Part shown: piece after piece, positions 1,434-20,182 of the stretch
How the letters are laid out: each line of letters starts with the position of its first letter
Position numbering within the stretch: the first letter of the stretch is position 1
Program-made: the position numbers and the translations under genes
The notes under the pieces: generated by a model
What the model was told of the DNA's origin: nothing
What the model saw: the letters and a program-made list of their open reading frames with translations, nothing else
The model's database searches: none
Origin: a virus
Length of the DNA stretch: 20,182 bases
IMG/VR virus record: IMGVR_UViG_3300042867_000482
Location: 1 to 20,182 of that record
Direction: 5' to 3' (one strand)

Positions 1434-4400
1434 ATGGCTACAAGTTCACGACAATCAGCACTATTCGGCGTTAACGATTGGAAGGCAATTTATCAAACCT
1501 TCCGTGAAGCCGATTTCCGTTCATATGACTATGAAACACTACGCAAAAGTTTCATAGATTATCTAAGAGTTTACTATCCGGAAACATTCAATGATTATAT
1601 TGAATCATCAGAGTTTATAGCGTTATTAGACGTTATGGCTTTTATGGGTCAGGGTTTAGCTTTCCGTAGCGACTTAAACGCACGTGAAAACTTTATTGAT
1701 ACTGCGGAACGTAGAGATAGTGTTGTTAAACTAGCAAACTTGGTTAGCTATACTCCTAAACGTAATTTAGCAGGTCAGGGCTATATCAAAGTAGTAAGTA
1801 TTCAAACAAGTGAAAATATTACTGACTTAAATGGATTTAATTTAAGTAATCAAACAGTATTATGGAATGACCCTGCAAATATTAATTGGCTAGAGCAATT
1901 TAATACAGTAATAAATGCAACACTAGTTAATAGTCAACGTGTTGGTCGTCCAGGAAATACCTCACAAATTTTAGGTATTAAGACTGATGAATATGCTATT
2001 AATATTCCATCTACTAGTTTGCCAATTATACCGTTTAGTGCTACAGTAGATAACACTACAATGAATTTTGAATTAGTTAGTGTAACTAGTTTAGATGAAG
2101 ATTATGTATATGAAATTCCTCCTGCTCCTAGCGGACGTTTTAATATGCTATATCGTAACGATAAATTAGGTTACGGTAGTCCAAATACAGGTTTCTTCTT
2201 TTATTTTAAACAAGGAAATCTACAGACTTACGATTTTAATTTAGCACAACAGATTAGTAATCAAGTAGTTGATGTTGATATTCAAGGTATCAACAACACC
2301 GATACTTGGCTATATCAGTTGAGTACCGATAATAGTAATACAACTACTAGGACATTATGGAATAAAGTAGAAAATGTATATGCGGATGCTTACCTTCAAA
2401 CTGAAAGTAGTATTCGTAGAATATTTGCTGTAGCTAGCAGATTTAATGACCAAGTTAGTTATACTTTTGGTGATGGAGTATTTTCCGAAATTCCAGTTGG
2501 AACATTTAGAGCATATGTACGTGCAGGTAATGCATTGACATATACGATTGATCCAACTGAAATGCAGAATCTATCAGTTTCAATAAGTTATATTAGTAGA
2601 GTAGGACGAACAGAAACACTTACATTAGGATTAGAATTACAGACACCAGTGTCAAACGCACAGGCAAGAGAAACATTAGCAAACATTAAACAACGTGCCC
2701 CTACTCGCTACTACACACAGAATAGAATGGTTAATGGTGAAGATTACAACAATTTCCCATATACATTATACAGTTCTATTATTAAAAGCAAAGCTATTAA
2801 CCGTAGTTCTGTTGGTGTATCAAAAAACTTAGACCTGTTAGATCCTACCGGAAAATACTCCAGTACCAATTCATTTGCAAGTGATGGTGGTATGTACCAA
2901 GATAGCACTAATGGCAATGAGTTATTAACTATTAATAGTTCTGGTGATATTATTACTTTCTTGACAGATACATTGGCTTCATTGCTAGCAGACAATCGAG
3001 CAAGACAGTATTACATTCAAAATTATACACGTTACAGTGTCAATGCCGCATCGGGTGATAACACAGTATATTGGCAAGAAGAAACAGTTGACACTAATAG
3101 TTTAACTGGATATTTTTATAATATAAATGGAAGTGCTAATGTACCTGTTTCTGTAGGAACGTATTCATCATATAATATGAAATATGTAACTAAAGGTGCA
3201 ATGATTAAGTTTATCGCCCCGAGTGGTTATTATTTTAATAATAACAATCGCTTAGTAGCCGGCATTGCAAGCCCATCAGATGCCACATACATTTGGACTA
3301 CTGTGTTAAATGTAGTGGGTGACGGATATAATAACGGTGAGGGTGCTTTTAGTAATGGTACCGGTCCGATAACATTAAATGGGTATGTGCCGCAGGGCGC
3401 AATTGTATCTACAATAATTCCTGCATTCGACAATTCATTGCCTAATTTAGTGTTACAGGAATGTATTGTTAGAATGGAATTAAATCAAAGCTTTAGTTTG
3501 ATATTCAATAACAGTCTAACAGTAGCGCAAGATCGTTGGAGTATTGGTGCATATAATGCTAGTAACTATTTTGTAAATTTACAAAGTGTAGGTAATAACC
3601 GTTATAGTGTATCATATCGTTCTTTAGCATATTATTTTGGTAGTGTTGCAGACACTAGATTTACATACGAAAGTGGTAAGTTGGTATATGACCCTGTAAC
3701 AGGTAAAGTATTACAAGATTTTGTAAAAGTATTAACTACCAACACACAGCCCGGTAGTAACTATCCATTAACAAATGCAGTGCCAGTAAGTATTATTGGA
3801 CAGACAATAGAGAGTGATGGCTATGTAAATGACTTTGAAGTAGAAGTAGCTAGCATTGATGTTAATGATAGAACTATTGTTAGTAACCCAGATTTCTTTA
3901 CTGAAGTTACTGGATATGTCAATGGTAACACAAATATTGGTATATATACTTTCTTTGAATTAATACAAGATGCTGTTAATTTATCACGCTATCAATTAAT
4001 AGCATCAGGTGAGGTTGTTTATCAATATGCAAATAAAACTCAAATTGAAATAGTTAAGTATGAATATCCTCAGGGTCAATTATTCTATGCATATACTGAT
4101 AATTTATTCTACACAACTATACAAGACCAAACGATTAACACTCCGTATTACCTAGTTATTGAACAACCTCAATATAGTATGAAATCAGGTCGTCAAGGGT
4201 TGCAGTTTCAATATCGTCATAATAGTAATAATACAACACGTATTGACCCTGCAACTACAAACATTATTGATTTGTATCTAGTTACACAGGCATATTATAC
4301 TGCATATCAGAATTGGATTCAAGATACTACTAACACAGTAATTGAACCAGATCGTCCTACTATTAATGAATTGCAACAAGCATACGGAACATTAAATGAT

Positions 4401-4814
4401 TATAAGATGTTAAGTGATAGTATAATTTTAAATAGTGTTGTGTTCTTGCCATTGTTTGGACCTAAAGCTCCAACAGCATTAAGAGCCACAGTTAAAGTTA
4501 TTAAATCATCTTCTACTAATGCAAGTGATAGTGAAATTCGAAGTGCAGTTCTTTCTGCAATGAACGATTATTTCAATATTAATTTTTGGACATTTGGAGA
4601 TACTTTCTACTTCAGCGAATTGAGTGCGTACTTGCATTCGCAAGTAGGTGAGTTAATAAGTTCTGCTGTGCTAGTACCTAACGACCCTACAATGAATTTT
4701 GGTGACTTGTATGAAATTAAGGCTGCCCCGTATGAAATATTTGCTAACGGTGCAACAGCAAATGACGTAGTAGTTATTGCCGCGCTTACTCCTGCAGAAT
4801 TACAAATAGCATAA
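1434..4814 (+). CDS. 6: Baseplate wedge protein gp6-like (Baseplate_J-related), enlarged
   Basis: The 1,126-residue product is recognisable as a T4 gp6-type wedge protein. In T4, gp6 dimers form the continuous inner ring of the baseplate and drive the hexagon-to-star change on attachment. The N-terminal ~130 residues are strongly family-like: ADFRSYDYETLRKSFIDYL, then FIALLDVMAFMGQGLAFRSD (about residues 62-81), NARENFIDTAERRDSV and LVSYTPKRN. The C-terminus also fits, with FYFSELSAYLHSQVGELISS near residues 1057-1076 and FGDLYEIKAAPYEIF near the end. The middle is beta-rich, high in Asn/Ser/Tyr, and longer than in T4, whose gp6 has 660 residues. It follows gene 25 and is followed after 26 bases by the giant gene, so the three are probably co-transcribed. 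The start is bounded by an in-frame stop at 1404-1406. Confidence 0.9.
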   Translation: MATSSRQSALFGVNDWKAIYQTFREADFRSYDYETLRKSFIDYLRVYYPETFNDYIESSEFIALLDVMAFMGQGLAFRSDLNARENFIDTAERRDSVVKLANLVSYTPKRNLAGQGYIKVVSIQTSENITDLNGFNLSNQTVLWNDPANINWLEQFNTVINATLVNSQRVGRPGNTSQILGIKTDEYAINIPSTSLPIIPFSATVDNTTMNFELVSVTSLDEDYVYEIPPAPSGRFNMLYRNDKLGYGSPNTGFFFYFKQGNLQTYDFNLAQQISNQVVDVDIQGINNTDTWLYQLSTDNSNTTTRTLWNKVENVYADAYLQTESSIRRIFAVASRFNDQVSYTFGDGVFSEIPVGTFRAYVRAGNALTYTIDPTEMQNLSVSISYISRVGRTETLTLGLELQTPVSNAQARETLANIKQRAPTRYYTQNRMVNGEDYNNFPYTLYSSIIKSKAINRSSVGVSKNLDLLDPTGKYSSTNSFASDGGMYQDSTNGNELLTINSSGDIITFLTDTLASLLADNRARQYYIQNYTRYSVNAASGDNTVYWQEETVDTNSLTGYFYNINGSANVPVSVGTYSSYNMKYVTKGAMIKFIAPSGYYFNNNNRLVAGIASPSDATYIWTTVLNVVGDGYNNGEGAFSNGTGPITLNGYVPQGAIVSTIIPAFDNSLPNLVLQECIVRMELNQSFSLIFNNSLTVAQDRWSIGAYNASNYFVNLQSVGNNRYSVSYRSLAYYFGSVADTRFTYESGKLVYDPVTGKVLQDFVKVLTTNTQPGSNYPLTNAVPVSIIGQTIESDGYVNDFEVEVASIDVNDRTIVSNPDFFTEVTGYVNGNTNIGIYTFFELIQDAVNLSRYQLIASGEVVYQYANKTQIEIVKYEYPQGQLFYAYTDNLFYTTIQDQTINTPYYLVIEQPQYSMKSGRQGLQFQYRHNSNNTTRIDPATTNIIDLYLVTQAYYTAYQNWIQDTTNTVIEPDRPTINELQQAYGTLNDYKMLSDSIILNSVVFLPLFGPKAPTALRATVKVIKSSSTNASDSEIRSAVLSAMNDYFNINFWTFGDTFYFSELSAYLHSQVGELISSAVLVPNDPTMNFGDLYEIKAAPYEIFANGATANDVVVIAALTPAELQIA

Positions 4815-4829
4815 GTATAATATAACCAT

Positions 4830-4836
4830 AGAGAGA
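4830..4836 (+). promoter_or_regulatory. Shine-Dalgarno site that fixes the start of the giant gene
   Basis: AGAGAGA lies four bases before ATG 4841. The in-frame TAG at 4829-4831 overlaps its first two bases, so ATG 4841 is the only reasonable start. No good late-promoter box is visible in the 26-base gap; CATAAGTA at 4810-4817 is a weaker relative of the boxes before genes 25 and 6. Confidence 0.7.
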
Positions 4837-4840
4837 AACG

Positions 4841-7800
4841 ATGGCAACAAGAATTAGAACATTAAATTTTCTACCTGAAATATTTAAAACAACAACTAAT
4901 AGTCAATTTTTAAATGCTACTTTGGATCAATTGGTAGCGCAACCAAATACAAAAAAAATTGAAGGTTATGTAGGTAGTAAATTTGGATATGGGGTTAATG
5001 CTAAAGACAAGTATGTAATAGAACCTAATAAAACACGTACGGACTATCAACTTGATCCTGGAGTCACGTTTCTTAAAAAAGACACAAATGTAGCACAAGA
5101 TTTTCTTAGCTATCCTGGCATTATAGATGGGTTAAAATTAGAAGGTGCAGTAACAAATGATAACAACAGACTATTTACTAGTCAGTTTTATTCTTGGGAT
5201 AGTTTTACTAATTTAGATAAGATTATTAATTTTAACCAATACTATTGGTTAGCTGAAGGCCCAGCCCCAGTTACAATTAGTACTGAAACTGTTTTCAATG
5301 CAACTGACTACACTATCACTAGCTTATCTAATGGGTATCTTGTAGTTGCTGACGGCGCATCTCAAGGTTCAGTTAATCCAACGTTAACTTTACTACGTGG
5401 CGGTACTTATCGTTTTTCAGTAAACCAAGATAGTCAATTTTGGATTCAAGGTGCTCCTGGGGTAACTGGATTTGACCCAACACAACCTAACATTCAAACA
5501 CGTGAAGTATTAGGAGTAGATAATAATGGTACTGAAGTTGGTGTAGTGACATTTACTGTACCATTTAAAAATGCACAAGATGAATATATTTTCCCTGGCA
5601 ATAATCGTGTTGATGTAGTGTCAACACTCCCATATGATGATGTTAATGGAGTATTGGTTAGTAGTCTAACTAATGGCATTGATGGTATCACCTCATTAGA
5701 AGGTCTTACTGTAATGTTTTATGATACCGGTGTTGCGAATGAACAAGGCTTTATTTCAAAATTCTATGATACTACAACATATGATGAAGACGGAGGATCC
5801 TCGTATACTCCACCTGGTTCTAGCGTAGATTTTAATAATTATGAAGGTGGATACTATACTGATGTATTTTCTACTTTTTATACAATAACGTATGAAGGTG
5901 ATCCAACAAATCCAGTTATTAGATTAGTTAATACTGGCACTATACCAGTTGAAGAAAAAATTACTGTAAATTATGGTACTGAGTGGATTGGCAGAAGTTT
6001 CTATTTAAACACCACCGACACAATAGAACTAATACCATATTTAAGTTCATTATTAGATACACTATACTATCAAGATGGTACGTCTAGTAACAAAGTTGGT
6101 CAAATTAAGCTTATTGCCAGCAACACAACTAACACCATTAATATATTAACAGATGTGATTGGCAAAGCTAACTATACATCACCGAACGGTGTTGTATTCA
6201 CAAACGGATTAAAAGTAATTTTCTCGGGTGATATATATCCAACAAGTTATGAAAATGTTCAATATTATGTTGAAGGTGTAGGGTCGGCAATCCAATTAGT
6301 TCAGGTTGCTGATTTAATTGCACCAGAACCTTTTACTGCAGGATCTTATATACCATACGATACTTTACCGTATGATGTGGGTAACTATGATAGCAATTTA
6401 TATGTACCGGTGACACCTGATTATATTACTATTGCTAGAAATAGCATAGATGAAAACGCATGGTCAAGAAGTAATCGCTGGTTCCACATTGATGTGATTA
6501 CTGCCACTGCCACTTATAATAATAATCCAGATTCAATAACCATATATGCTACGGCATCCAATAAAGCTAAACGTCCTATTATTGAATTTTATCCTAATTT
6601 AAAATTATTCAATTCAGGCATTGTGGGCAAAGCACCAATTGACTTTATTGACTTTAGAACACCCGATGCATTTACGCAAGTAGCTAGCCAAGAAGTATAT
6701 TATCCGGACGTAGAAGTTTATACAGCATATACTGTCGAAATTACCGGAGTGACCGGTACCTCTACTACTATTGATATTCCTACAACTGATATTACTGGTT
6801 CTTTTCAAATTGGTCAATATGTTGCTGATTTAGTTATAGATGGACCTAGTCAATTACCTCCCACAACTCAAATTACAGATATTTCTACTGCTAGTGGTAC
6901 AACTACACTGACAGTAACTTGGGTAGGATCAACAACAATTATCGGAACCACTACAGAAGAAATATCATTAATTGCAAACGATGAACAGAATGACGAATAC
7001 GCAATATTTGATGGTGCAAGAATTGTATTTGCTGCCGACACACGTGATAATGTAAAAAATAAAATATATATTGCTAGATTTAGTTCTATCTCAGTAGGTT
7101 CTAATCCAATAATAACTTTAACAGAAGCATCAGATGGATTAGTATTGCCTGCTGAACAAACTTTTACATTTAGAGGTTATAACTACCAAGGTAAAGATTT
7201 TTACTTTGATGGTTTAGATTGGATATTAGGTCAACAAAAAACTACATTAAATCAGCCACCGTTATTTGATATATTTGATGAAAATAATATAAGTTTTGGT
7301 AACAGAGAGGTATATGTAGGAACATCATTTGCAGGTAATAAGTTATTTGCATATGGTATAGGTGTTGGTATTGACGATGTAGTCTTAGGCTTCCCGTTAC
7401 TATATAGTGCGGTAGACAATGTAGGAGACATTACCTTTAACGTATCTTTAAACTTAGATACATTTGATTATGTAAGCGGAACAACTCCAAAAACACAAAA
7501 AGTTAATACTGGTTATGTTTATAATTATAATGACTTGACTTCTTACACAAGACAATTGGGTTGGCAAACAGCAGTTGCACCTAGTGTGCAATATCAGATA
7601 TTTGAATTTAATTATTATGCTAATAATCCAACTACAACTTATACTTGCGACATTGCAAAATTAGCAGACGACAATAGTATATGGCCTACTATACAACTAT
7701 ATCTTAATAATAGTATACAGTCTGCAAGTGATTATACAGTAACAATTACTTCTAATCAAACTATTGTTGAATTTAGTGTACCCAATCCATTGGAAGACAC

Positions 7801-10800
7801 CGTTGTTGAAATTTTATTATTGAGTGATCAAGTTAGTCCAACTGCATATTATCAAATACCAACTAATCTAAATAACAATCCATTAAATGGAGATATTACA
7901 GTAGTCAATGTTGGTGATATTAGAGGACAATATCAAAGTATTTTCTACAATAATCCAAACACAACAGGTACAATATTTGGTTCTAATAACTATCGTGATT
8001 TAGGCAATGTAGTGCCATATGGTAACGCTATTATACAAAATAGTGCAAGTTTAGTATTACCTGGCACATTCTTGCGTAAACAAAATCACAATTTATTTAA
8101 TGCATTATTGTTTAATAGTAGAGAATATGTTACCTTTAAAACATTGTTAGTAGATACGGTTAATTCTACTGATTACAATTTTGCAACACCTGCGTCAACA
8201 ATGTTAGATGATGCATTAGATAAAATTTCTGCATCTAAAACAGATAGTAATTCATTCTTTTGGAGTGATATGTTGCCAAGTAAAGCGGCATACATTATCA
8301 ACTCATACAGTTTTGCAAATGCATTAGATACCAGTATATATCCTTTAAGTCAAATATACAATTTTGCGACCGCAAACTATAATAGTGTTTTGGTTTATTT
8401 AACCAACTCATCCGGAATAGTAACACAATTAATACGTAACACCGATTATACGGTGAGTACTGACACTCCGTCATTAACAATTACAACGGATTTGGTAGCC
8501 GGTGATCAAATTACTATTAAAGAATATAATCAAACATATGGTAACTATGTTCCAAATACGCCGACTAAGTTAGGATTATACCCAGCAACAATTCCATCAG
8601 TTACATTAGATAGTAATTACAATCAACCTACATATTTTATTGTAGGACACGACGGATCATATACTAAATTATACGGCGACTACATAAATGGTAGTTTAGT
8701 TGATTTTAGAGATCAGGTTTTATTAGAGTTTGAAACTCGTATATATAATAACTTAAAACTAAGTAATACCATACCAATACAGGCATATGAAGTATTACCT
8801 GGCTTCTTCCGAGACACTGATTATAGCTATGATGAAATATTAGAAATTTACTCTAGTAGTTTCTTAAATTGGGTTGGTCAAAATAGAATTAATTATAAAA
8901 AACAATTTTACAATTCTACTAATCAATATACATATAACTACAATCAATCTGGTAATAAGATAAATGGCAGTGTTATCCCGCAAGGTTATTGGAGAGGTAT
9001 ATATGAATACTTCTATGACACTAGTAATCCAAATACTAGTCCTTGGGAAATGATTGACTACAAAAATATGCCTAGTTGGTGGACAAGCCGATATGGTGCC
9101 GCACCGTATACAAGTGATAACTTAGTATTGTGGGGCGACCTATCACAGGGTATTGATTGGAATGACGGTAACCCAGTTGTAATACCAAAAGCAATTAGAC
9201 CAGAATTATTAGAAGTATTACCAGTAGATAGTGCAGGCAATTTAGTATCACCGTTTAATGCTATAGTAGGTAACTATAGCAACACCTCATTTAATCGTGA
9301 TTGGAAAGTTGGCGATGTGGGTCCGGCAGAGTTCTCGTATCGTAGAAGCAGTAGTTGGCCTTTTGACCTGATGCGTATATTAGCACTAACTAAACCAGCC
9401 GAGTTCTTTAACTTGGGTGTTGACGTAGACAATTACAAATACAATGAAGAATTTAATCAATATCTAGTTAATGATAGAAGCCATTTAGTATTAAGTGACA
9501 TTCAAATATACGGAAGTGGTATTGCTAAGACCAGCTATATCAATTGGATTGTTGACTTTGAAAAACAAGTAGGGGTAGATGCAACTACTAACATTACTAC
9601 TTTATTAAAGAATTTAGATGTACGATTAGTATATCGTCTTGCAGGGTTTAGCGATAAAACTTTATTGAAATTTTATGTTGAAAAATCAACAGCTAATAGT
9701 AACAACAGTAGTTTATTGATCCCGGATGAGAGTTACCAAGTATTACTATATGATAACCAACCGTTTGACCGTATTGTATATAGCGGAGTAGTGATTCAAC
9801 TAACAGATAACGGTTATTATAAGGTATATGGCAATAGCCAAACCAATGCATATTTTAATGTGTTATTACCAAAAATCAACGGTAGTTATGATAGAGTATC
9901 GGTTCAAGGTTTGAGTGTACAAGTAGCTAAAGATTACTATACCACACCTACATTGATTGCATATGGTACAGAATTTTATAGTGTGCAAGAAGTAGCACAA
10001 TTCTTAGAAAGTTATGGTAGATATTTAGCAAGTCAAGGTGTATTATTTGATCAAATAGAATCTGGATTAAAAGTGAGCTGGAGACAAATGGTTGCTGAAT
10101 ATTTGTATTGGGCTCAATCTGGATGGGAAACTGGTAGTATAGTTAATATAAATCCAGCTGCCGACCTAATATCTATTAACAAAGATAGTTATATTGTACA
10201 GCCATTAACACTGCAACAACAAAATTTTGTATTGAATCAAAATTTATATCCAATACAAAGTGTTGATTTGAGCATTGTTCGTGATGGTACCTTATTCACA
10301 GCACAGCCGTTAAATCAAGGTGATACTGTTGCATACGGTCAATTCAATATTAGTAATTTTGAACACGGTATTGTATTTGATAATATTACATTATTTGGGG
10401 ATGTGATTTATAATCTAGTTACCGGTCTACGTCAAAACCGTATTATCTTGCGTGGAACAAAAACCGCTGAATGGAATGGTACAATAGATGCTCAGGGCTT
10501 TATTCTTAATCAAGATAATATACTTGAATGGAGTAAAGAAGTCAAGTATACTACCGGATCTATTGTCAAATACAAAAACAAATACTGGATTGCTATTAAA
10601 ATTATTCAAGCAAAAGAACTATTTGATGAACGTGATTGGAAACAAACAGATTATAACGAAATACAAAAAGGTTTGTTACCAAATACAAGTACCCGTTCAT
10701 ACGAAAGTACATTGTATTATGATGTAAACAAAACTAACTTAGAAAATGATGCTGACTTATTAAGTTTCAGTTTGATTGGTTATCGTCCACGTGATTATTT

Positions 10801-13800
10801 GGCTCTTGCTGACTTAACCGACATTACACAGATTAATGTTTACAAAAACTTTATTAAGAATAAAGGTACATTGAATGCAGCCAGCGCCTTTAAGGGTGCT
10901 AGTTTACCTCAAGGTGGTATTGATTATGATATCTATGAAAACTGGGCTATCAAGTCAGGTGAATTTGGGGGCGTACTGAACAGTAATTTTGTTGACTTTA
11001 AACTAAATGAAACATTATTAACCGGTAATCCAAGTATTGTTGGACTAACAAACGGAGTGTATACAGACGGAGTACAGCAAGAAGTACCGTTGTATAGCTT
11101 GTATAATTATGGACGCCCAATAACTAATACAAACGTACTTCCGTTATTACCAATTGATACACCTACACAATTATTCCCTGATGCAGGTTATGCTAATTTT
11201 AATGATATGCGAATTGCGGCATATTATTATTCTAACTTATCAACTAGCACTGCACCTAGCGGAGAAGTAATTCCTATATCAAACTTATATGTAGGACAGT
11301 ATGTTTGGTTAGCTAACTACCAAGGTACTTGGGATGTAATGACTCCTATAAGTTTGGGTCAAGTGATATTTGCGAAAAACAATTTAAATGGTACAGTTAC
11401 TATAGTATTCAATACTCCCCATAACTTATCAAAATATCAACCGTTTGCAGTTGTGAATTTTAATGATTCATTGAATGGTTATTATGTTGCTAATACCATA
11501 GTTGATCCACATAGTATTTTAGTTAATGTTACGTTAGATCCGTCTATTACTTCTATTACAGGACAAGGTATTGGTTTTAAGTTTCAATCACAGCGTGTTG
11601 ATAATCCAAGTGATATTATTAATTTACCATTATTGAATAATGAATTTGTAAAAAATAAAGTATGGGTAGACACTAACAATGATGGTAGTTGGGCTGTATA
11701 TCGCAAAGATATTAATTATAGTTATGCTTCTGAGTTAACTAAAGCAGGGTCACAATCATTTGGTAATGCAGTTGCATATACTGATGGTCTAGGATATTTA
11801 ATAAGCGATGCAGATGCTGGTATTGTATATCGTTATGTGTTTAATGAATTATTTCAAGTATATCAATTAACACAAACATTAACTGGAAGTGCATCATTTG
11901 GTGCAACTATTGCTTATAGTGATGATATATTTGTTATATCACAGCCAACAGGAGCAACTACCGCTGATAGAAAAATAAACATTTATCAATTGATTATTAC
12001 TACTGCAGTAGATGAATTACAACTATTACAAACTGCAATTGAAGCACCTGCGGGTGTAACAAATTGGGGTAGTGCGTTAGCAATATCCGGAGACAAAAAT
12101 TGGTTATATATTTCAGACACAGCCAATAATAGTGTTCACGTTTATTTCAAATCAGCAATCACTGGTAACTATATAGCTAGTTATATTATAGACGGAGATG
12201 CATTGGGTCTAACTACATCAGGTGATAATTTTGGTTATTCATTGTCAACTGATTATTACGGTGATACTATTGTAATTGGAACCCCTGATAAAGATTATGA
12301 TATTAATACGGGCAATTGGGGCTATACATATGTGTTTGCTAGAACAGTACAAAATTTTGAAGCGCAATACTCTAGTACTACAGGAGTACCGCAACCATTA
12401 ACTTTATCTTGGACTCCTGCCACAGTAACACAAACGGCAACAGCAACTGATGCCTCAACAGAAAGAATTACAGTTACAAGTTCTGCTGGTTTTAGCGTAG
12501 GTGATCCTGTAGTATTCTCTGGGACTTTATTATCATCCGGAGCAATTTCAGCCAATATAGTATATTATGTGTATGATAAACCAACAGGTACTACATTTAG
12601 AATTGCGGCAACACGTGATGCATTAGCTCCAATCAATTTAGTTACTGATACAGGTAGCATGACTTGTACTATACAGACAACTCCGTTATTAATTAATGTT
12701 AATGGTACAGCACTAACTGATAATAATTATGCAGTTATTGGATCAACATTATACGTATACAGTGCATTAAATGCAGGTGATATTATCAATGTTAGTGGTA
12801 ATAATATAGTATTGGCTCAAACATTAACGTCTGAGACTACACCGAGAGCAAATGTTCAGTTTGGCAAGAGTATAGACACTACCACATACGCTACTGAAAT
12901 CTTAATAGGTGCACCTTTTGAGCTTAATAGTCAAAATCAAGAAGGTGCGGTCTATCGTTATACTAATGGTGGCGGCAAGTATGGTATGATTGTTGGCTCT
13001 ACTGACTGCGCTATTACAACTAGTAGAACTATTTTGATAAATGGATATGCAGTTACATTAACTGCAGGTGATGCAACACTAGCAACAGCAATCATTAATA
13101 ATGCACGTATTACTAACGTTCAAGCTGCCGCACAAGACGGAAAATTAATTATTAGTTTAATAGATACCGCATTGGCTTCAGTGAATGACAAATTAAATGT
13201 AACTGCGTTGAACGTTGCAACTTGGGCAGAGTTAGGTTTTAATACTTACACACAAACGCAAGTAATTAATGATCCGCACATTCAAAGTACAACACAATTT
13301 GGAAACACCGTTAAGTTTAATGAATTTGATTCATTTATTGTAAGTGCACCTACTGCAACTAGATATGAAGCAACAACATTTGATTCATCTGATGATGAGA
13401 ACTATGATAATGACACCTTGTTTGATAACAATGCCACTCAGTGGGTAGACACTAGTGTAAATGCAGGTGCTGTTTATATGTATGATTATCTATCAGTATA
13501 TAATGAAAGTTTGCTTAATACCGGCAACTTTGTATATGCTCAAAGTGTTAATGATATTAATGAAACATATGGCAGTCAACCTCTATACGGTCAAGCATTA
13601 GAATTTAATGCATCTCATGTTGTTGTAGGAACTCCAAACTTTAAACCAGGTATTAATAATGGACAAATTACAACATATATCAATGATAGTGGTCAAGTTG
13701 ATTGGAGCGTTTATAGAAATTCTAACCCAGTTGTTGATTCAGGTAGAATACAAAATATACAATTGTATAGTGCGTTAACAAACAATACACTAGACAACTT

Positions 13801-16800
13801 AGATTATATTGATCCGTTGCAAGGTAAGATATTAGGTTCGGTAAGACAAAATATTGATGTAGTATCTAATATTGATCCTGCAGGATATAATGCACCTAAC
13901 ACACCTAAGGGCACAATGGTATGGGGAACAGCCCAACTTGGCCAGTTATGGTTTAACACTAGCAATACACGTTTTGTAAATTATCATCAAAATGATATTG
14001 TATACAATAGCAAATGGTGGGGCCGAGTATTCCCTGGCAGTGATGTAGCTGTATATAGTTGGATTACAAGCACTGTTCCTCCAATCTCTTATGCTGGTTC
14101 GGGAACTGTATTTGATGTAGAGTCTTATGCCATTGAATATGTATTAAATGCAACGGGAGTATTAACACCCGTATACTTCTATTGGGTACGTAATACTAAC
14201 ATTGTGTTTACTAAAACAGGAAAAACGCTATCAGATAGCATCATTCAATCTTATATTGCATCACCTATAAATTCTGGTATAAGCTATTTTGCACCATTAC
14301 AACAAAATATATTTGCTTTATATAATAGTGGAGAAAACATTAATGCCACTGACACTGTATTGCATATTGGATTTGGCACCGGTACCAATGATGACGTATC
14401 ACATAGTCTTTATAGTTTAATCCGAACTAAGTATGCTGATGACTTTTTACCTGGATTACCTAGAACAGATTCATTAGATGTACCGGAATCATTATATGAT
14501 AGAATGTTAGATAGTATGTGTGGTGTAGATGAATCGGGTGGAGTGGTTCCAGATCCATACTTACCTAAACCAGTGCAATCGGGTATCTATGCAAGACCAA
14601 GACAAAGTTTCTTTGTTAATAGATTTTTGGCACTAAAAAATTATTTAACATATGCCAATGAGATATTAGCACAATATCCTATAACAGAAACACGTAGACC
14701 TTTATTCTTGTTTACAGAAGGTGCAACTAATCTTTCAACTGATCCAGTATATAATACTGATCCTGATCCAGACAACCCGTATTATAGTGTTAACCCTTGG
14801 ACCGGTCCTATTGAAATATTCTACCAAACTTCTAATTATTGGAATTATATTAATTGGTGGGCAACTGGATACGATAATAATACTAAATCTGCGTTGCAAG
14901 TTCCTGTATATGCAGATTTATCAACAATTGATGCTAGTGCTGGATTAATTGTTACGGTCACAACAAACGGCGACGGTAAATCAGAAACATATGTTTATAC
15001 TGAACTTGGTATTTGGGAAAGAATTGGATTACAAGACGGTACAATTGAGTTTAATTCTAGTCTATGGGATTATGAAACAGCACGTTTAGGTTTCGGAGAT
15101 AACTTCTATGATACAACACCTTACGATCAATACCCTTCAGCAGAAACTCGTAGTATTGTAAGAGCATTAAATGAAGAAATTTACACCAATGAGTTATTAA
15201 TTTATAGAAACAATAGTTTAATATTGCTGTTTGAATACATTCAAAGTGAAACGATTGAATCACAAAATTATTTGCCTTGGTTAAATAAAACATCATTTAT
15301 TGATGTTGCACATACTATACGTGAATTAAGACCAATTGAAGTATTTCAATCTGATAATCAAATATTTTTAGAAGGATATATTAATGAAATTAAACCATAT
15401 CACGTAGTGATTAAGGAATTCTTGTTTAAGTATACAGGTACCGATGTATTCGCAGGTGATATTACCGATTTTGATTTACCTGCACAATATAATACTAGTG
15501 TCGAACAATTTATTACTCCTGAGTTAGTATATACCACTCCAAATGCGGCTAATCAATATTTGCCCACTGATCCTATCTGGCAAACTGCTCCCTATATTCA
15601 GTGGTTCAATAATTATGGTTTAAGTATTACTGGAGTAAATGATTATCAGATTACAGTACTATCATCTTATATTGCATTAAACACTAATGCGTTCACAGTA
15701 GACAATGCATTTGGATTCCCAATAAACGGAAATATATTAATTGGGGATGAGATAATTGGTTATTCCAATGTTGATAGAGCAAACAATACTATTAGCGGAT
15801 TAACACGTGGTGTGGACGGAACTACAGTTAGTGCTCACGTGCCAGGTGAAATTATTACTATTAATTTACCGGCAGTATTATTATTAGACGGTGGTAGAGG
15901 GTATACAGAACCGCCAAAAATCACTGCATATATCGACCCTAGTTATCCTGCACCTAGACGTGCCGCAGTATTAGAAGCGGTAATGAGTTTAGACTCTGTG
16001 TTAAGTGTTAATGTTATAGATCCAGGTGATGGATATACAGTGTTACCACAAATTGTTATAGATCCTTCAATAACGGTAACATTTACAAGTGCGCAAGTAA
16101 ACACAATAACAAATACTATTCAGTTAACCGCACCGTTTTTACAAACAGGAGATTTAGTAACATATACAGTTGGTGCTAATACTACTCCGGTTGGAGGATT
16201 AGATCCTAACCAATATTATTATGTAAATGTGTTAGAGACAGCTCCAACATTTGTAGTTGCATTATATACTAATTACGGAAACGCATTAAATGATCATGAT
16301 CGTGTGGTATTATTTAATCCCGGTGCTGGCCCCAACAATGCATTAAACGTTAGTGCTAGAGCTAGTTGTATATCATCTTCAATGCCAATTCGTGAAAATC
16401 AAATTATATTGCGTTTTGATAGAACTAGTTATACTTCGGATGTAACAGAATGGCGTTCTGGTGCATTCTATGGTAGTTATTATGCTGGATTATATAATAA
16501 TAGTGAAAGAGTTTCTAGTTCTAGTATTTCTTTACAAGCCACTCAGCCTCCTATAGATTCAATTTTAGCTAGTGCTGAAGGTGCAACTTTTGAAGTAGAA
16601 GATGTCACCAATGAACAAACTTTGAGTTGGAGTTCACGTACACGAAATGTTGTATCAACCTTAGCATCTACGGATGTAATTACTATTGAACCTTCTACGG
16701 GAGGTGCACCAGATGAAGGAACAGTGGGACCAACAACCGGTATGTATATTGATATGCCAGTAAAATTTCAAGGAGCAGTTAGTTCAAGTAATTTAATTAA

Positions 16801-19800
16801 CGATACAACTTATTATATTAAAGAAATTTTAAGTCAAACTGAAATTATTATTTCTGAATCTGTTGGTGGTGCAACATTTGCATTAGGCAATGCCACAATT
16901 AGTAGTGCAGGCTTGTTGATGTATGTGGGTGAAGTCACTAACACCGCAGTAGTGACATTATTCTATCCAGGCATATTAAATGCAACTGCTACTACTGCAG
17001 CCACTAACTCAATTACAGTACCCCAAGTGCAAGTTAATCCTAATTTAGGAGGCACTAGCGGTTTCTATCCTAATTTACCAATATTTTTTACTGGAGCTGT
17101 ATTTGGTGGAATCATTGAAAATGAAACATATTATATTACTACTGTTATAGATGATGAGACATTTACAATGTCTACTACAACTAACGCATTGAACATCGCG
17201 GTTAACTCAACCTCTTCTAGTGGTAATGTTATTAATTGTACAAGCACAGTTGGACTTTCTATTAATGACCCTATTATCTTTACTGATATTTTAGTTGCAT
17301 CAGGAACAACAAATATTGTAGCAGGTACAACATATTACGTAAGTGCAGTAAACTCAAACTCACAGTTTGTTATATCTGCTGTAGTTAATGGTGGCCCGTT
17401 TAATCCAGGTACTAGCACAGCTACAATGACAGGTATAGATCAAAAGAATATTGTACAATTAACTAATGCAACAGGTAATATGACTTGTAATGTTGGATTG
17501 CCAGTAAGTCCTGGGCAAGTTAATGGACAACAATTTACTTTCTATTCAACCTCATCAACAGTTACCGGCCCCGCATTTACTCAGGGTAATTTAATTGAAG
17601 GCACTATTGCTAGCGCATTGGCAAACGGTGATTATTTGTCCGTTAGTACAACTAGTGGCGGCACAACTAATATGTATGTTAATATGCCAATCAGATTTGC
17701 TGATACTTACGGTGGTTTGTCGACCGGAACAACATATTATGTTAAAGAAATTGGTGTAATAACTGCAGATATCACTGAAACCACTGCAACTAATGTGTTA
17801 ATTGCTAATGATACTTTACCGTATACTGGTACAGAAGGCTTCTATGTTGGTATGCCTATAATCTTTACTGGTACTACATTGGGTGGAATTATTGCAAACG
17901 CATTATATTTTGTCAAAACTGTAAATGTTAATGGCACTGATTTTACTATATCTGATGCACCTAGTGGTGCTGAACTAGATTTATACGCAGATTCAGGATC
18001 AATGACTGCAACAGGTGAACCATACATTAAAGTATCTGCTACTTTAGGCGGTTCAGTATTAGCATTGTCTGATGATACTGATGTTACTACAGTAACTCAA
18101 TATCCTACATCAAGTCCTGCATTCAACATCAGTTGGATATTGGGCGGTTATCAATACGTTATTACTTCTTCGGGCTCAGGATATGCAATTAACAATACCT
18201 TTACAATATTAGGTACTGCACTAGGCGGTGCTACTCCTGCTAATAATTTAGTATTGACAGTTAATACTATTGGAACTAATGGACAATTAACAGCCTTAAT
18301 TAGTAACGGCACTCCACCTGATGCAGTTACTCAATATTACTTAAAAGTTATTTCTCCGTCTGAGTGTGAAGTGTATAGTGATTCTTTATTACAGATCCCT
18401 GTAAGTGGTATTGGCTTCCCGTATACTGCAGGTGACTATGCGTTGTTGCCAGAACCATTCTACTTCAATCAAAGTGTTGTTAAGTATAACAACAGAGTTT
18501 ATCAATGTATCATTAGTAATAATGACAGTGAATTTATATTTGGTAAGTGGGAATTGTTATCTAGCGATAGTAGAAAACTAAATGCGTTAGATAGAATTGT
18601 AGGGTACTACAAACCAGAAAAATCTAACACAGCCGCCTGGAATGAATATATTAATATGCCGGGCAGTGATTTAACTCAACTAGTAAATGGAATTACTTAT
18701 CCAAATAGCACGTATTTAGGTAATGCGTTTGCTCCGGATGAAGAATATACATTAGATACGGATTTACAAGACCAAGTGTTTACTCCCGCTGAAGTTGACA
18801 CTACCTCAATATTATGGAATGGTACTACTTATTTTGGAACATCTAATACTCCTAACTATTCTGATGTTACAAGCAGTATCAATGGTAGTACTTGGGTGTT
18901 TAATAAAATTACAAATCAATTATTATCTTTAACTGATATTGTATATTCTGGCACAAAATATGTAATAAGTTCGCAAAATAGTGCTACTCCGATCTTAGTA
19001 AGTGATGATGGAATTACTTGGGCTACTACTGGTTTAGAAAATGGCACAGTATCTATTGGAAACACCCAGTTAAACAGTATTGCATACTCGAATGGTATAT
19101 ACATTGCGGTTGGACAAAATATTGTAAAAAGCACTGATGCATATAATTGGACAGAAACATATAGATTTACTAGTGTGGTTTTAAACGGTGTATCTGCAAT
19201 CTCTATACCTAATTTTACTGGATTTATTGCAGTAGGATCTGGTCCTAATTATAATACTATACCTACAACAACTAAGAGTATAGTGTTGGTAAGTTTTGAT
19301 GGTACTGGTTGGACAAACAACACTCCGTCAGGCTCTGTTGACATATTAAATGCAGTATCATCTAATGACTCTATAATAATTATTGCTGGTAATAATGGTA
19401 CTATATACATAAGTAACAATGGTAGTAACTGGGTTAATGTTAGTACTGGCAGTGCGACATTAAATGACATTACGTATTCTGATAGTCTTGGGATGTTTAT
19501 AATAGTAGGTAATTCTGGTGTTATATTAAAATCACTAGACAATGGTGATACTTGGAGTACTGTCACAACATCTACTACGGAAAATTTAAATAGTGTTATT
19601 TGGAATAGTGATTTATCTGAATTCATTGTTACCGGTGACAACAATATTATATTACAAAGTTCTAATGGAACAACTTGGACAAGTAGTAATATATTTGTCA
19701 CAGATCCTACAGTATATAATGTTCAAGGTGATTCATTCACTTCGGGTTATGGTCCGGAAGAGTTAGTACCGGGTGTGGTTAGTGATAATCTAACAATGAT

Positions 19801-20182
19801 TGTTACTACTCGTCCGGGCACAAATTGGGATGTTGAGGTATACGCACACGTTGGTTACAATGTTGTGTCAATTGAATTACCATCATCTCCTGGACAAACT
19901 ACATTTAGTTTTGCTGATCGTACACAGAGTCCTGCGCAAATATCTGTATTCCAAATTGATAGTTCAACTGGATTATCTACTCGTTTGTATGCCCCAACAT
20001 TTAGTGTTGATTGGATAACAAAAACAGTAGAATTAATTACAGCATTACCTACAAATGATTCATTAATAATTGACATATATGAAGTTGGTAACGGTGATCA
20101 ATTAGAAAAATCTAATAGTCAAACTGACCCTATTAGAATTAACACAGAAACAGGATTCAATGAAATTTATTTAAATTGTAAT
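4841..20182 (+). CDS. Giant modular virion structural protein, 5,114 codons visible, 3' end beyond window
   Basis: I translated the frame from ATG 4841 to the window edge and met no stop codon, giving at least 5,114 residues. No signal peptide or clear membrane segment is visible. Ten cysteines were counted. Residues 1 to about 3540 hold blocks I recall from very large proteins next to gp6 in marine T4-like phages: NQYYWLAEGP (132-141), AWSRSNRWFHIDVI (540-553), LGQQKTTLNQPPLFDIFDE (796-814), YNQTYGNYVPNTPTKLGLYP (1229-1248), RRSSSWPF (1500-1507), YGTEFYSVQEVAQFLESYGR (1708-1727), YDIYENWAIKSGEFGG (2029-2044), LDYIDPLQGKILG (2987-2999) and FLEGYINEIKPYHV (3510-3523). Modules are set in and after this scaffold: CBM-like units, an FG-GAP-like propeller, FCCH-like repeats, a BNR/Asp-box propeller, and then GYGPEELVPG (4968-4977). 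Position after gp6 suggests a baseplate-attached protein, perhaps filling the place of gp7 or acting as a host-binding appendage; neither is shown. Confidence 0.9.
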   Translation, partial: MATRIRTLNFLPEIFKTTTNSQFLNATLDQLVAQPNTKKIEGYVGSKFGYGVNAKDKYVIEPNKTRTDYQLDPGVTFLKKDTNVAQDFLSYPGIIDGLKLEGAVTNDNNRLFTSQFYSWDSFTNLDKIINFNQYYWLAEGPAPVTISTETVFNATDYTITSLSNGYLVVADGASQGSVNPTLTLLRGGTYRFSVNQDSQFWIQGAPGVTGFDPTQPNIQTREVLGVDNNGTEVGVVTFTVPFKNAQDEYIFPGNNRVDVVSTLPYDDVNGVLVSSLTNGIDGITSLEGLTVMFYDTGVANEQGFISKFYDTTTYDEDGGSSYTPPGSSVDFNNYEGGYYTDVFSTFYTITYEGDPTNPVIRLVNTGTIPVEEKITVNYGTEWIGRSFYLNTTDTIELIPYLSSLLDTLYYQDGTSSNKVGQIKLIASNTTNTINILTDVIGKANYTSPNGVVFTNGLKVIFSGDIYPTSYENVQYYVEGVGSAIQLVQVADLIAPEPFTAGSYIPYDTLPYDVGNYDSNLYVPVTPDYITIARNSIDENAWSRSNRWFHIDVITATATYNNNPDSITIYATASNKAKRPIIEFYPNLKLFNSGIVGKAPIDFIDFRTPDAFTQVASQEVYYPDVEVYTAYTVEITGVTGTSTTIDIPTTDITGSFQIGQYVADLVIDGPSQLPPTTQITDISTASGTTTLTVTWVGSTTIIGTTTEEISLIANDEQNDEYAIFDGARIVFAADTRDNVKNKIYIARFSSISVGSNPIITLTEASDGLVLPAEQTFTFRGYNYQGKDFYFDGLDWILGQQKTTLNQPPLFDIFDENNISFGNREVYVGTSFAGNKLFAYGIGVGIDDVVLGFPLLYSAVDNVGDITFNVSLNLDTFDYVSGTTPKTQKVNTGYVYNYNDLTSYTRQLGWQTAVAPSVQYQIFEFNYYANNPTTTYTCDIAKLADDNSIWPTIQLYLNNSIQSASDYTVTITSNQTIVEFSVPNPLEDTVVEILLLSDQVSPTAYYQIPTNLNNNPLNGDITVVNVGDIRGQYQSIFYNNPNTTGTIFGSNNYRDLGNVVPYGNAIIQNSASLVLPGTFLRKQNHNLFNALLFNSREYVTFKTLLVDTVNSTDYNFATPASTMLDDALDKISASKTDSNSFFWSDMLPSKAAYIINSYSFANALDTSIYPLSQIYNFATANYNSVLVYLTNSSGIVTQLIRNTDYTVSTDTPSLTITTDLVAGDQITIKEYNQTYGNYVPNTPTKLGLYPATIPSVTLDSNYNQPTYFIVGHDGSYTKLYGDYINGSLVDFRDQVLLEFETRIYNNLKLSNTIPIQAYEVLPGFFRDTDYSYDEILEIYSSSFLNWVGQNRINYKKQFYNSTNQYTYNYNQSGNKINGSVIPQGYWRGIYEYFYDTSNPNTSPWEMIDYKNMPSWWTSRYGAAPYTSDNLVLWGDLSQGIDWNDGNPVVIPKAIRPELLEVLPVDSAGNLVSPFNAIVGNYSNTSFNRDWKVGDVGPAEFSYRRSSSWPFDLMRILALTKPAEFFNLGVDVDNYKYNEEFNQYLVNDRSHLVLSDIQIYGSGIAKTSYINWIVDFEKQVGVDATTNITTLLKNLDVRLVYRLAGFSDKTLLKFYVEKSTANSNNSSLLIPDESYQVLLYDNQPFDRIVYSGVVIQLTDNGYYKVYGNSQTNAYFNVLLPKINGSYDRVSVQGLSVQVAKDYYTTPTLIAYGTEFYSVQEVAQFLESYGRYLASQGVLFDQIESGLKVSWRQMVAEYLYWAQSGWETGSIVNINPAADLISINKDSYIVQPLTLQQQNFVLNQNLYPIQSVDLSIVRDGTLFTAQPLNQGDTVAYGQFNISNFEHGIVFDNITLFGDVIYNLVTGLRQNRIILRGTKTAEWNGTIDAQGFILNQDNILEWSKEVKYTTGSIVKYKNKYWIAIKIIQAKELFDERDWKQTDYNEIQKGLLPNTSTRSYESTLYYDVNKTNLENDADLLSFSLIGYRPRDYLALADLTDITQINVYKNFIKNKGTLNAASAFKGASLPQGGIDYDIYENWAIKSGEFGGVLNSNFVDFKLNETLLTGNPSIVGLTNGVYTDGVQQEVPLYSLYNYGRPITNTNVLPLLPIDTPTQLFPDAGYANFNDMRIAAYYYSNLSTSTAPSGEVIPISNLYVGQYVWLANYQGTWDVMTPISLGQVIFAKNNLNGTVTIVFNTPHNLSKYQPFAVVNFNDSLNGYYVANTIVDPHSILVNVTLDPSITSITGQGIGFKFQSQRVDNPSDIINLPLLNNEFVKNKVWVDTNNDGSWAVYRKDINYSYASELTKAGSQSFGNAVAYTDGLGYLISDADAGIVYRYVFNELFQVYQLTQTLTGSASFGATIAYSDDIFVISQPTGATTADRKINIYQLIITTAVDELQLLQTAIEAPAGVTNWGSALAISGDKNWLYISDTANNSVHVYFKSAITGNYIASYIIDGDALGLTTSGDNFGYSLSTDYYGDTIVIGTPDKDYDINTGNWGYTYVFARTVQNFEAQYSSTTGVPQPLTLSWTPATVTQTATATDASTERITVTSSAGFSVGDPVVFSGTLLSSGAISANIVYYVYDKPTGTTFRIAATRDALAPINLVTDTGSMTCTIQTTPLLINVNGTALTDNNYAVIGSTLYVYSALNAGDIINVSGNNIVLAQTLTSETTPRANVQFGKSIDTTTYATEILIGAPFELNSQNQEGAVYRYTNGGGKYGMIVGSTDCAITTSRTILINGYAVTLTAGDATLATAIINNARITNVQAAAQDGKLIISLIDTALASVNDKLNVTALNVATWAELGFNTYTQTQVINDPHIQSTTQFGNTVKFNEFDSFIVSAPTATRYEATTFDSSDDENYDNDTLFDNNATQWVDTSVNAGAVYMYDYLSVYNESLLNTGNFVYAQSVNDINETYGSQPLYGQALEFNASHVVVGTPNFKPGINNGQITTYINDSGQVDWSVYRNSNPVVDSGRIQNIQLYSALTNNTLDNLDYIDPLQGKILGSVRQNIDVVSNIDPAGYNAPNTPKGTMVWGTAQLGQLWFNTSNTRFVNYHQNDIVYNSKWWGRVFPGSDVAVYSWITSTVPPISYAGSGTVFDVESYAIEYVLNATGVLTPVYFYWVRNTNIVFTKTGKTLSDSIIQSYIASPINSGISYFAPLQQNIFALYNSGENINATDTVLHIGFGTGTNDDVSHSLYSLIRTKYADDFLPGLPRTDSLDVPESLYDRMLDSMCGVDESGGVVPDPYLPKPVQSGIYARPRQSFFVNRFLALKNYLTYANEILAQYPITETRRPLFLFTEGATNLSTDPVYNTDPDPDNPYYSVNPWTGPIEIFYQTSNYWNYINWWATGYDNNTKSALQVPVYADLSTIDASAGLIVTVTTNGDGKSETYVYTELGIWERIGLQDGTIEFNSSLWDYETARLGFGDNFYDTTPYDQYPSAETRSIVRALNEEIYTNELLIYRNNSLILLFEYIQSETIESQNYLPWLNKTSFIDVAHTIRELRPIEVFQSDNQIFLEGYINEIKPYHVVIKEFLFKYTGTDVFAGDITDFDLPAQYNTSVEQFITPELVYTTPNAANQYLPTDPIWQTAPYIQWFNNYGLSITGVNDYQITVLSSYIALNTNAFTVDNAFGFPINGNILIGDEIIGYSNVDRANNTISGLTRGVDGTTVSAHVPGEIITINLPAVLLLDGGRGYTEPPKITAYIDPSYPAPRRAAVLEAVMSLDSVLSVNVIDPGDGYTVLPQIVIDPSITVTFTSAQVNTITNTIQLTAPFLQTGDLVTYTVGANTTPVGGLDPNQYYYVNVLETAPTFVVALYTNYGNALNDHDRVVLFNPGAGPNNALNVSARASCISSSMPIRENQIILRFDRTSYTSDVTEWRSGAFYGSYYAGLYNNSERVSSSSISLQATQPPIDSILASAEGATFEVEDVTNEQTLSWSSRTRNVVSTLASTDVITIEPSTGGAPDEGTVGPTTGMYIDMPVKFQGAVSSSNLINDTTYYIKEILSQTEIIISESVGGATFALGNATISSAGLLMYVGEVTNTAVVTLFYPGILNATATTAATNSITVPQVQVNPNLGGTSGFYPNLPIFFTGAVFGGIIENETYYITTVIDDETFTMSTTTNALNIAVNSTSSSGNVINCTSTVGLSINDPIIFTDILVASGTTNIVAGTTYYVSAVNSNSQFVISAVVNGGPFNPGTSTATMTGIDQKNIVQLTNATGNMTCNVGLPVSPGQVNGQQFTFYSTSSTVTGPAFTQGNLIEGTIASALANGDYLSVSTTSGGTTNMYVNMPIRFADTYGGLSTGTTYYVKEIGVITADITETTATNVLIANDTLPYTGTEGFYVGMPIIFTGTTLGGIIANALYFVKTVNVNGTDFTISDAPSGAELDLYADSGSMTATGEPYIKVSATLGGSVLALSDDTDVTTVTQYPTSSPAFNISWILGGYQYVITSSGSGYAINNTFTILGTALGGATPANNLVLTVNTIGTNGQLTALISNGTPPDAVTQYYLKVISPSECEVYSDSLLQIPVSGIGFPYTAGDYALLPEPFYFNQSVVKYNNRVYQCIISNNDSEFIFGKWELLSSDSRKLNALDRIVGYYKPEKSNTAAWNEYINMPGSDLTQLVNGITYPNSTYLGNAFAPDEEYTLDTDLQDQVFTPAEVDTTSILWNGTTYFGTSNTPNYSDVTSSINGSTWVFNKITNQLLSLTDIVYSGTKYVISSQNSATPILVSDDGITWATTGLENGTVSIGNTQLNSIAYSNGIYIAVGQNIVKSTDAYNWTETYRFTSVVLNGVSAISIPNFTGFIAVGSGPNYNTIPTTTKSIVLVSFDGTGWTNNTPSGSVDILNAVSSNDSIIIIAGNNGTIYISNNGSNWVNVSTGSATLNDITYSDSLGMFIIVGNSGVILKSLDNGDTWSTVTTSTTENLNSVIWNSDLSEFIVTGDNNIILQSSNGTTWTSSNIFVTDPTVYNVQGDSFTSGYGPEELVPGVVSDNLTMIVTTRPGTNWDVEVYAHVGYNVVSIELPSSPGQTTFSFADRTQSPAQISVFQIDSSTGLSTRLYAPTFSVDWITKTVELITALPTNDSLIIDIYEVGNGDQLEKSNSQTDPIRINTETGFNEIYLNCN
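10517..10648 (+). other. CBM5/12-like small module 1 in the giant protein
   Basis: Residues about 1893-1936 follow the pattern W-x(6)-Y-x(2)-G-S-I-V-x-Y-K-N-K-Y-W-x-A ... W. Examples are W1897, GSIVKYKNKYW ending at W1916, and closing W1933. This spacing resembles the short three-stranded carbohydrate-binding modules (CBM5/12) of chitinases and phage tail proteins. The resemblance is by eye; sugar binding is not shown. Confidence 0.4.
12347..12841 (+). other. Domain inserted between propeller blades 4 and 5, including an FCCH-like copy
   Basis: Residues about 2503-2667 interrupt the FG-GAP-like propeller. Within them, residues about 2470+ onward give ITVTSSAGFSVGDPVVFSG ... VYYVYD ... TTFRIAATRD ... 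GSMTCTI. This follows the 'G-x-P-V-x-F-x-G ... Y-Y-V ... F-x-I' layout of the repeats found again at 16,085-17,995. The rest (LLINVNGTALTDNNY ... VGST) is a short beta-rich stretch. Confidence 0.5.
12962..13261 (+). other. Domain inserted between blades 5 and 6, resembling the flagellar-hook IN motif
   Basis: Residues about 2708-2807 contain ILINGYAVTLTAGDATLATA, then INNARITNVQAAAQDGKLII. This is a strand-turn-strand, helix and 'DGKL-I-I' layout like the IN motif of flagellar hook-associated proteins. Similar stretches occur in phage structural proteins. The similarity is by pattern only. Confidence 0.35.
15671..16075 (+). other. Beta modules after the scaffold: LTRG module and paired GYT...P repeats
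   Basis: Residues 3620-3665 carry GFPINGNILIGDEIIGYSNV and then ISGLTRGVDGT, a pattern I recall from phage tail proteins. Two short related units follow: LDGGRGYTEPPKITAYIDP (from 3683) and VIDPGDGYTVLPQIVIDP (from 3725). Both read G-x-GYT-x2-P-x-I-x3-I-D-P. They look like a duplicated small beta unit. Confidence 0.45.
16085..17995 (+). repeat. Array of six FCCH-like beta modules in the giant protein
   Basis: Six diverged copies share the layout 'G-x-P-I-x-F-x-G-(x)n-G-T-T-Y-Y-V-x-x-(I/V)-(x)n-F-x-I-S'. Key strings are QYYYVNVL (16,211-16,234 region), DTTYYIKEI near residue 3988, ETYYITTV near 4094, GTTYYVSAV near 4162, GTTYYVKEI near 4296 and NALYFVKTV near 4354. Each is preceded by a strand such as MPVKFQGA, LPIFFTGA, DPIIFTDI, MPIRFADT or MPIIFTGT. 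Databases often label phage modules of this type as the E1 FCCH domain; I expect that label here but could not test it. A scaffold-like block (MPIRENQIILRFDRTSY, from 3848) separates copy one from the rest. A seventh copy lies inside the FG-GAP region. Confidence 0.6.
18182..18315 (+). other. GYA...TILG-LGG beta module in the giant protein
   Basis: Residues 4447-4490 read GYAINNTFTILGTALGGATP, then NNLVLTVNTIGTNGQLTAL. This is the 'GYxxxdxxTIxGxxLGGxxPxNdlxxTV' pattern common in phage tail and tail-fibre proteins. A conserved linker precedes it (SWILGGYQYVITSSGSG). Confidence 0.45.
18428..18565 (+). other. CBM5/12-like small module 2 in the giant protein
   Basis: Residues about 4530-4575 read FYFNQSVVKYNNRVYQCIIS ... 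FIFGKWELL. The spacing of Y-N-N-R-V-Y-Q and the closing W4570 parallels module 1 near residue 1900. It is followed directly by a scaffold-like block (KLNALDRIVGYYKP). Confidence 0.4.
18788..19696 (+). other. Seven-repeat BNR/Asp-box beta-propeller in the giant protein
   Basis: Seven Asp-box-like motifs of the form S-x-(D/N)-x-G-x-x-W are regularly spaced: SINGSTW (4679-4685), SDDGITW (4721-4727), STDAYNW (4764-4770), SFDGTGW (4818-4824), SNNGSNW (4858-4864), SLDNGDTW (4898-4905) and SSNGTTW (4940-4946). Intervals are 42, 43, 54, 40, 40 and 42 residues. Between motifs each unit has LNSIAYSNGIYIAVG-type strands (DIVYSGTKYVIS, DITYSDSLGMFIIVG, SVIWNSDLSEFIVTG), the expected inner strands of a blade. 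Such propellers are found in sialidases, sortilin-like and Ycf48-like proteins; sialidase catalytic residues were not identified. The region lies between scaffold-like blocks LDTDLQDQVFTP and GYGPEELVPG, so it looks like an inserted cassette. Confidence 0.75.

Follow-up and report, generated by a model that had tools for sequence, protein, structure and literature searches.

The window analysed here, an entire IMG/VR record of 20,182 bp, carries one giant phage gene on the plus strand (4841..20182), which is truncated by the end of the contig after 5,114 codons. The gene is real and single, it belongs to the baseplate operon encoding the hub, gp25 and gp6, and its product is a member of PHROG 10938, the lineage of the window forming a new subfamily of longer proteins within a known family of jumbo-phage virion proteins. 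We consider it probable that the product is a giant baseplate protein formed by one chain in a jumbo myophage; it would act in six copies both as a wedge and as an adhesion-arm protein. Its placement in the virion is deduced from the homologue PA5oct gp355 and from gene order, the phage of the window being known here from its sequence.

The frame runs without a stop codon from the ATG at 4841 to the window edge, as the sequence-only reading had stated. In the remaining five frames, this region is interrupted by 260, 377, 380, 508 and 730 stops, so that chance does not account for so long an open frame. The TAG which that reading had noticed in frame shortly upstream of the start was located at 4829-4831, 9 bases upstream of the ATG, past the gp6 stop codon and ahead of an AGAGAG purine stretch (4829..4840 for the two elements together, as read from the sequence). 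A comparable AGAGA stretch precedes the ATG of the giant gene in most relatives. The start at 4841 is also backed by the relatives through its common position and the MATRIRTLNFLPE-type N-terminus. The mass computed for the unfinished product is 560.8 kDa, in agreement with the earlier estimate of an incomplete protein of more than 500 kDa. According to the alignment to complete relatives, roughly 800-1,340 C-terminal residues are absent from the window, and the complete protein may thus be about 5,900-6,500 residues long.

Scanning viral contigs with the first 1,000 residues detected 360 relatives, of which the best 80 were retained. The open frame of the giant gene comprised 5,557-6,890 codons in 27 of 28 related records. 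All 20 relatives fetched whole contained a single unbroken ORF ending with a normal stop after 5,889-6,886 codons (proteins of 646-747 kDa), and the protein of the window aligned with these complete relatives over its entire length. Codon-by-codon comparison of four pairs gave dN/dS values of 0.04-0.30 in each stretch of approximately 500 codons, i.e. the gene is under purifying selection along its whole length. Three more contigs are 99.9% identical to the window; the longest of them extends to base 13,874. The source is a metagenome contig fragment and the gene is broken in two relatives, which might suggest that stop codons were lost artificially through misassembly or collapse. In L014, about 175 bp are missing near 20731, and L133 carries a 1-nt frame shift near 18916 when compared with its sibling L128 (98.8% identical). 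Since these breaks are isolated and lie at different places, they have the appearance of individual errors or mutations. With the intact frames in the relatives, the agreement of the near-identical contigs and selection acting over the entire length, the probability of an artefact is negligible and we rejected this explanation. The two isolated breaks give no grounds for assuming several separate genes in the relatives either; the relatives keep one gene, and both challenges which the earlier reading had raised against a single frame have thus been answered. Comparison shows that the very long ORFs of this phage clade are real, conserved and selected single genes.

The window opens with the 3' part of a gene for a gp5-like baseplate hub and tail lysozyme (3..908, plus strand), the complete copy of which (2790-6068, 1,092 aa) is present in L051, a contig 99.9% identical to the window. 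The L051 gene matched phrog_13211 (baseplate hub and tail lysozyme) with E 2.7e-37 and Phage_base_V with 1.8e-4, which is under the curated cut-off. The Ala/Gly-rich C-terminal part of this hub protein is encoded with a 33-bp tandem repeat in 2.8 copies (window 21-112). On the same strand, there follow the genes for a gp25-like baseplate wedge subunit of 149 aa (928..1377; phrog_43, phrog_975 and GPW_gp25, the last with E 6.6e-6, narrowly under the gathering score) and for a gp6-like baseplate wedge subunit of 1,126 aa (1434..4814; phrog_10646 E 2.3e-259, phrog_219 E 6.7e-22). The latter protein also matched cyanophage gp6 (1e-12 and 1e-11) and T4 gp6 (6e-5). Both gp25 and gp6 were found upstream of the giant gene in all 54 related contigs reaching far enough, the gp6 match mostly stopping about 30 bases 5' of the giant gene; the position immediately 3' of the gp6-like gene is also evident from the annotation of PA5oct and RaK2.

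In T4, the slot directly 3' of gp6 is occupied by gp7, a 1,032-aa baseplate wedge subunit about one sixth as long as the giant protein, although gp25 is not adjacent there and gp8 comes next. The proposal that the gene occupies the T4 gp7 wedge position was right as to the location directly after gp6, but no homology to T4 gp7 was detected (HMMER E 0.57, HH probability 0.2% or less). The HH pairwise test is weak, as annotated cyanophage gp7 was also negative against T4 gp7; T4 gp7 compared with the cyanophage gp7 profile gave E 1.3e-4. With either HMMER or HH comparison, the N-terminal region and the core showed no detectable homology to T4 gp7, gp8 or gp10, and direct homology of the giant protein to T4 gp6, gp7, gp8, gp9, gp10, gp11 or gp12 was rejected. 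Families of the T4-type gp7 and gp8 were not found in six large related records, in a weak test whose controls barely scored. It is reasonable to suppose that the giant protein acts in the place of gp7, whereas no sequence or fold homology was detected that would make it a gp7.

The profile phrog_10938 matched three pieces of the giant protein significantly (E 3.9e-118, 2.5e-91 and 1.7e-57), covering the N-terminus, the core and the 3' block, and the N-terminus of the window's protein alone gave E 1.2e-27. The cultured members scanned were PA5oct gp355 (3,857 aa), Atu_ph07 AUZ94962 (4,449 aa), SCTP-2 gp140 (3,807 aa) and RaK2 ORF070 (3,326 aa). They share the homologous N-terminus, the core 400-2180 and the block 2945-3590 with the protein of the window, and the giant gene follows gp6 in PA5oct and RaK2; the upstream gene order in Atu_ph07 and RaK2 is similar to that of the window. 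In contrast to these proteins of 3,326-4,449 aa, the members of the window's lineage reach 5,889-6,886 aa, with an additional FG-GAP propeller and, at the C-terminus, an extension of approximately 2,300 residues or more. PA5oct gp355, which sits between wedge subunits and fibre or tail-pin genes, is annotated as detected in the virion by ESI-MS/MS. The order in PA5oct is wedge, wedge, giant gp355, 41 aa, 201 aa and tail-pin-like, and most of these products are annotated as ESI-MS/MS-detected. PHROGs files PHROG 10938 in the category 'head and packaging', though the family is labelled just 'virion structural protein'. A search of a viral fold library gave uncultured phages and Atu_ph07 as best matches, thus mostly the protein's own family.

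The gene had previously been linked, tentatively, with a known lineage of giant proteins in marine T4-like phages. Counterparts do exist there, but PHROG 10938 is the true family, and only small C-terminal modules are common to the window's protein and the cyanophage gp7 family. Single CDSs of cultured cyanophages encode 7,124 (P-SSM7), 6,817 (ACG-2014d), 6,076 (syn9) and 5,195 (P-SSM2) residues. P-SSM7_090 and syn9 gp101, which belong to PHROG 701, each form one giant CDS directly 3' of gp25 and gp6 and have a small module around aa 3675-3750 in common with the window's protein, whereas the N-terminus and core are without a match and the protein family is a different one. The cyanophage gp7 'baseplate wedge initiator' (PHROG 2885), represented by S-CAM9 gp177 (3,884 aa), has the same gene position (gp25-gp6-gp7), a YCF48 propeller resembling that of the window and a GGxGY-type module, but no homology across the N-terminus or core. 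Comparison with PHROG 701 and PHROG 2885 found no homologous N-terminus (HH probability 0.2%). When the full alignment was compared with S-CAM9 gp7, hhalign returned spurious 2-column matches, which were disregarded. Since longer proteins occur in cultured cyanophages, and phage proteins of up to 7,694 residues, some of them tentatively structural, have been predicted (Al-Shayeb et al. 2020, PMC7162821), the size of the window's protein is not exceptional and no record, contrary to what had been surmised. A giant protein after gp6 is thus kept by three phage groups, namely the jumbo phages of PHROG 10938 and the cyanophages of PHROG 701 and PHROG 2885. This shared position, with little if any homology detected between the giants of jumbo phages and those of cyanophages, suggests that the peripheral wedge has more than once been constructed as a single long modular chain. 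Such recurrent giants merit structural work, though their size is ordinary beside cyanophages.

A profile of 21 giant proteins was compared with the cultured members and showed common regions at residues 1-165, about 410-2180 and 2945-3590. The conserved N-terminal domain (aa 1-165; 4841..5335, plus strand, as are all the regions below) was matched in PA5oct, Atu_ph07, SCTP-2 and RaK2 and gave E 1e-27 or better with phrog_10938 in 8/8 members scanned. We propose from gene order that it is a wedge-docking domain. The adjoining aa 170-250 (window 5350-5600) resemble a cupredoxin/YHYH-type domain by eye, and related uncultured phage proteins in BFVD carry the name YHYH domain proteins. The slowest-evolving part of the protein lies in the core (aa 1000-2100). 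A CBM5/12-type, chitin-binding-like module (aa 1893-1937; 10517..10651) is a weak Pfam match (E 0.02), but all 21 proteins of the set carry one copy of it; the fold predicted for residues 1180-2190 is similar to 2d49, the chitin-binding domain of ChiC (rmsd 2.1 over 41 columns, prob 1.00, E 0.18). The FG-GAP-type beta-propeller repeats (aa 2299-2848; 11735..13384; PF14312 FG-GAP_2 E 2.7e-5), of which every member of the set has 4-5, constitute an insertion relative to PA5oct and RaK2, whose aligned core passes over this region. The second conserved core block (aa 2945-3590; 13673..15610) again aligned in PA5oct, Atu_ph07, SCTP-2 and RaK2. The remainder of the window encodes the lineage-specific C-terminal extension (15611..20182), which continues beyond the contig. 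It includes beta modules of approximately 80 aa, of which a profile counted 11-18 in each complete protein and 7 in that of the window. Four repeats of a YCF48/BNR-type propeller also lie here (aa 4655-4947; 18803..19681; PSII_BNR E 9.4e-5, under the gathering score).

Comparison of this kind separates the shared scaffold parts from lineage-specific modules, for which a function in adhesion may be assumed. The relatives differ in module copy number and in short linker repeats, which accounts for part of their range in length. Some of them, e.g. G017 and G005, have a repeat of approximately 48 aa (AGSFVIGNTYxIxxxGTTDFTLIGA...FxATGxGTGTGTA) in several positions, like a mobile linker module; there are 8 copies in G017 and 0 in the window. 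The cysteine content (0.2%) and predicted pI of 4.2 of the window's protein would suit a structural protein that is rich in beta structure and extracellular. AlphaFold models of residues 1-1150 (pLDDT 71) and 1180-2190 (pLDDT 61) were of middling quality. Fold searches of the PDB with both models yielded no match at E <= 1e-3, the N-terminal model giving diffuse beta-sandwich matches only, and a PDB sequence search with two profiles gave nothing useful.

From these data we infer that each virion would be assembled with six copies of the protein. The conserved N-terminal domain would dock on the gp6-gp25 wedge core, a role played by gp7 in T4, and the conserved core (aa 400-3590, minus the inserted propeller) would form the peripheral wedge, which in other phages consists of separate proteins such as gp7 and gp8. 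The outward arm, made up of the FG-GAP propeller, the CBM5/12-like module, the ~80-aa beta modules and the YCF48-type propeller, might mount fibres and touch sugars or proteins of the host surface. This wedge and arm assignment is favoured because an unbroken, selected gene invariably follows gp25-gp6, its PA5oct homologue is virion-detected, the downstream genes are fibre-like, and the chain has propellers and CBM-like modules. Equally giant cyanophage proteins after gp25-gp6, and the YCF48 propeller in S-CAM9 gp7, also argue for it. The missing homology to gp7, gp8 and gp10, the middling models and the filing under 'head and packaging' count against it.

The same modular, beta-rich C-terminus with its propellers and CBM-like module, together with the fibre-like genes downstream, would also suit a side or long tail fibre or adhesin, placed beside the wedge genes and at the baseplate periphery, with no gp7-like structural role in the wedge. 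Tail fibre families are among the PHROG matches of the cyanophage counterparts, and the syn9 counterpart by position is noted as a 'putative fiber'. We regard such a fibre as unlikely, since evolution is slowest in the core and not at the tip, the N-terminal domain is conserved over phages with unrelated hosts, the gene always lies right after gp6, and a T4-type gp7 was not found elsewhere in the six large records (by the weak test described above).

The chain could also be synthesised as a polyprotein and processed into several virion proteins while the particle assembles, as the region spans the length of several usual wedge proteins. The genes downstream bear on this point. In 19 of the 20 complete relatives, the first ORF 3' of the giant gene encodes about 55 aa; it is followed by a protein of approximately 206 aa (PHROG 11259) and then by a fibre-like protein with a weak match to Peptidase_G2, through which an autoproteolytic fibre domain may adjoin the giant protein. 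Pfam and PHROG profile searches, however, found no protease domain in the giant chain itself, and the annotation of PA5oct gives gp355 as one product, which makes processing quite improbable. With the wedge and arm protein as a single chain, a bolder and tentative possibility is that one chain of approximately 6,000 residues absorbed several wedge roles (gp7, gp8 and possibly the fibre mounts). In this clade of jumbo phages, six copies, with a total of about 4 MDa, would then account for the bulk of the outer baseplate together with its fibre network.

The small ORF after the giant gene has a counterpart of 41-42 aa in PA5oct and Atu_ph07, and in PA5oct it is likewise followed by a protein of ~200 aa and fibre-type genes. 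In the relatives, the ~55-aa ORF (GGFYFSSHLKITDPNTKEVL) and the N-terminus of the 206-aa protein (FLKIYDPISGEVL) carry a common short motif. A search of bacterial genome contigs for host assignment gave just three stray matches in metagenome bins. The complete relative G001 (L103) encodes two radical SAM proteins past the fibre genes (PF04055, E 2.5e-11 and 3.5e-13). It also has ORFs there that, on visual inspection, resemble glycosyltransferases; the two that were scanned gave no Pfam match. Together these genes suggest that fibres or surface sugars are modified.
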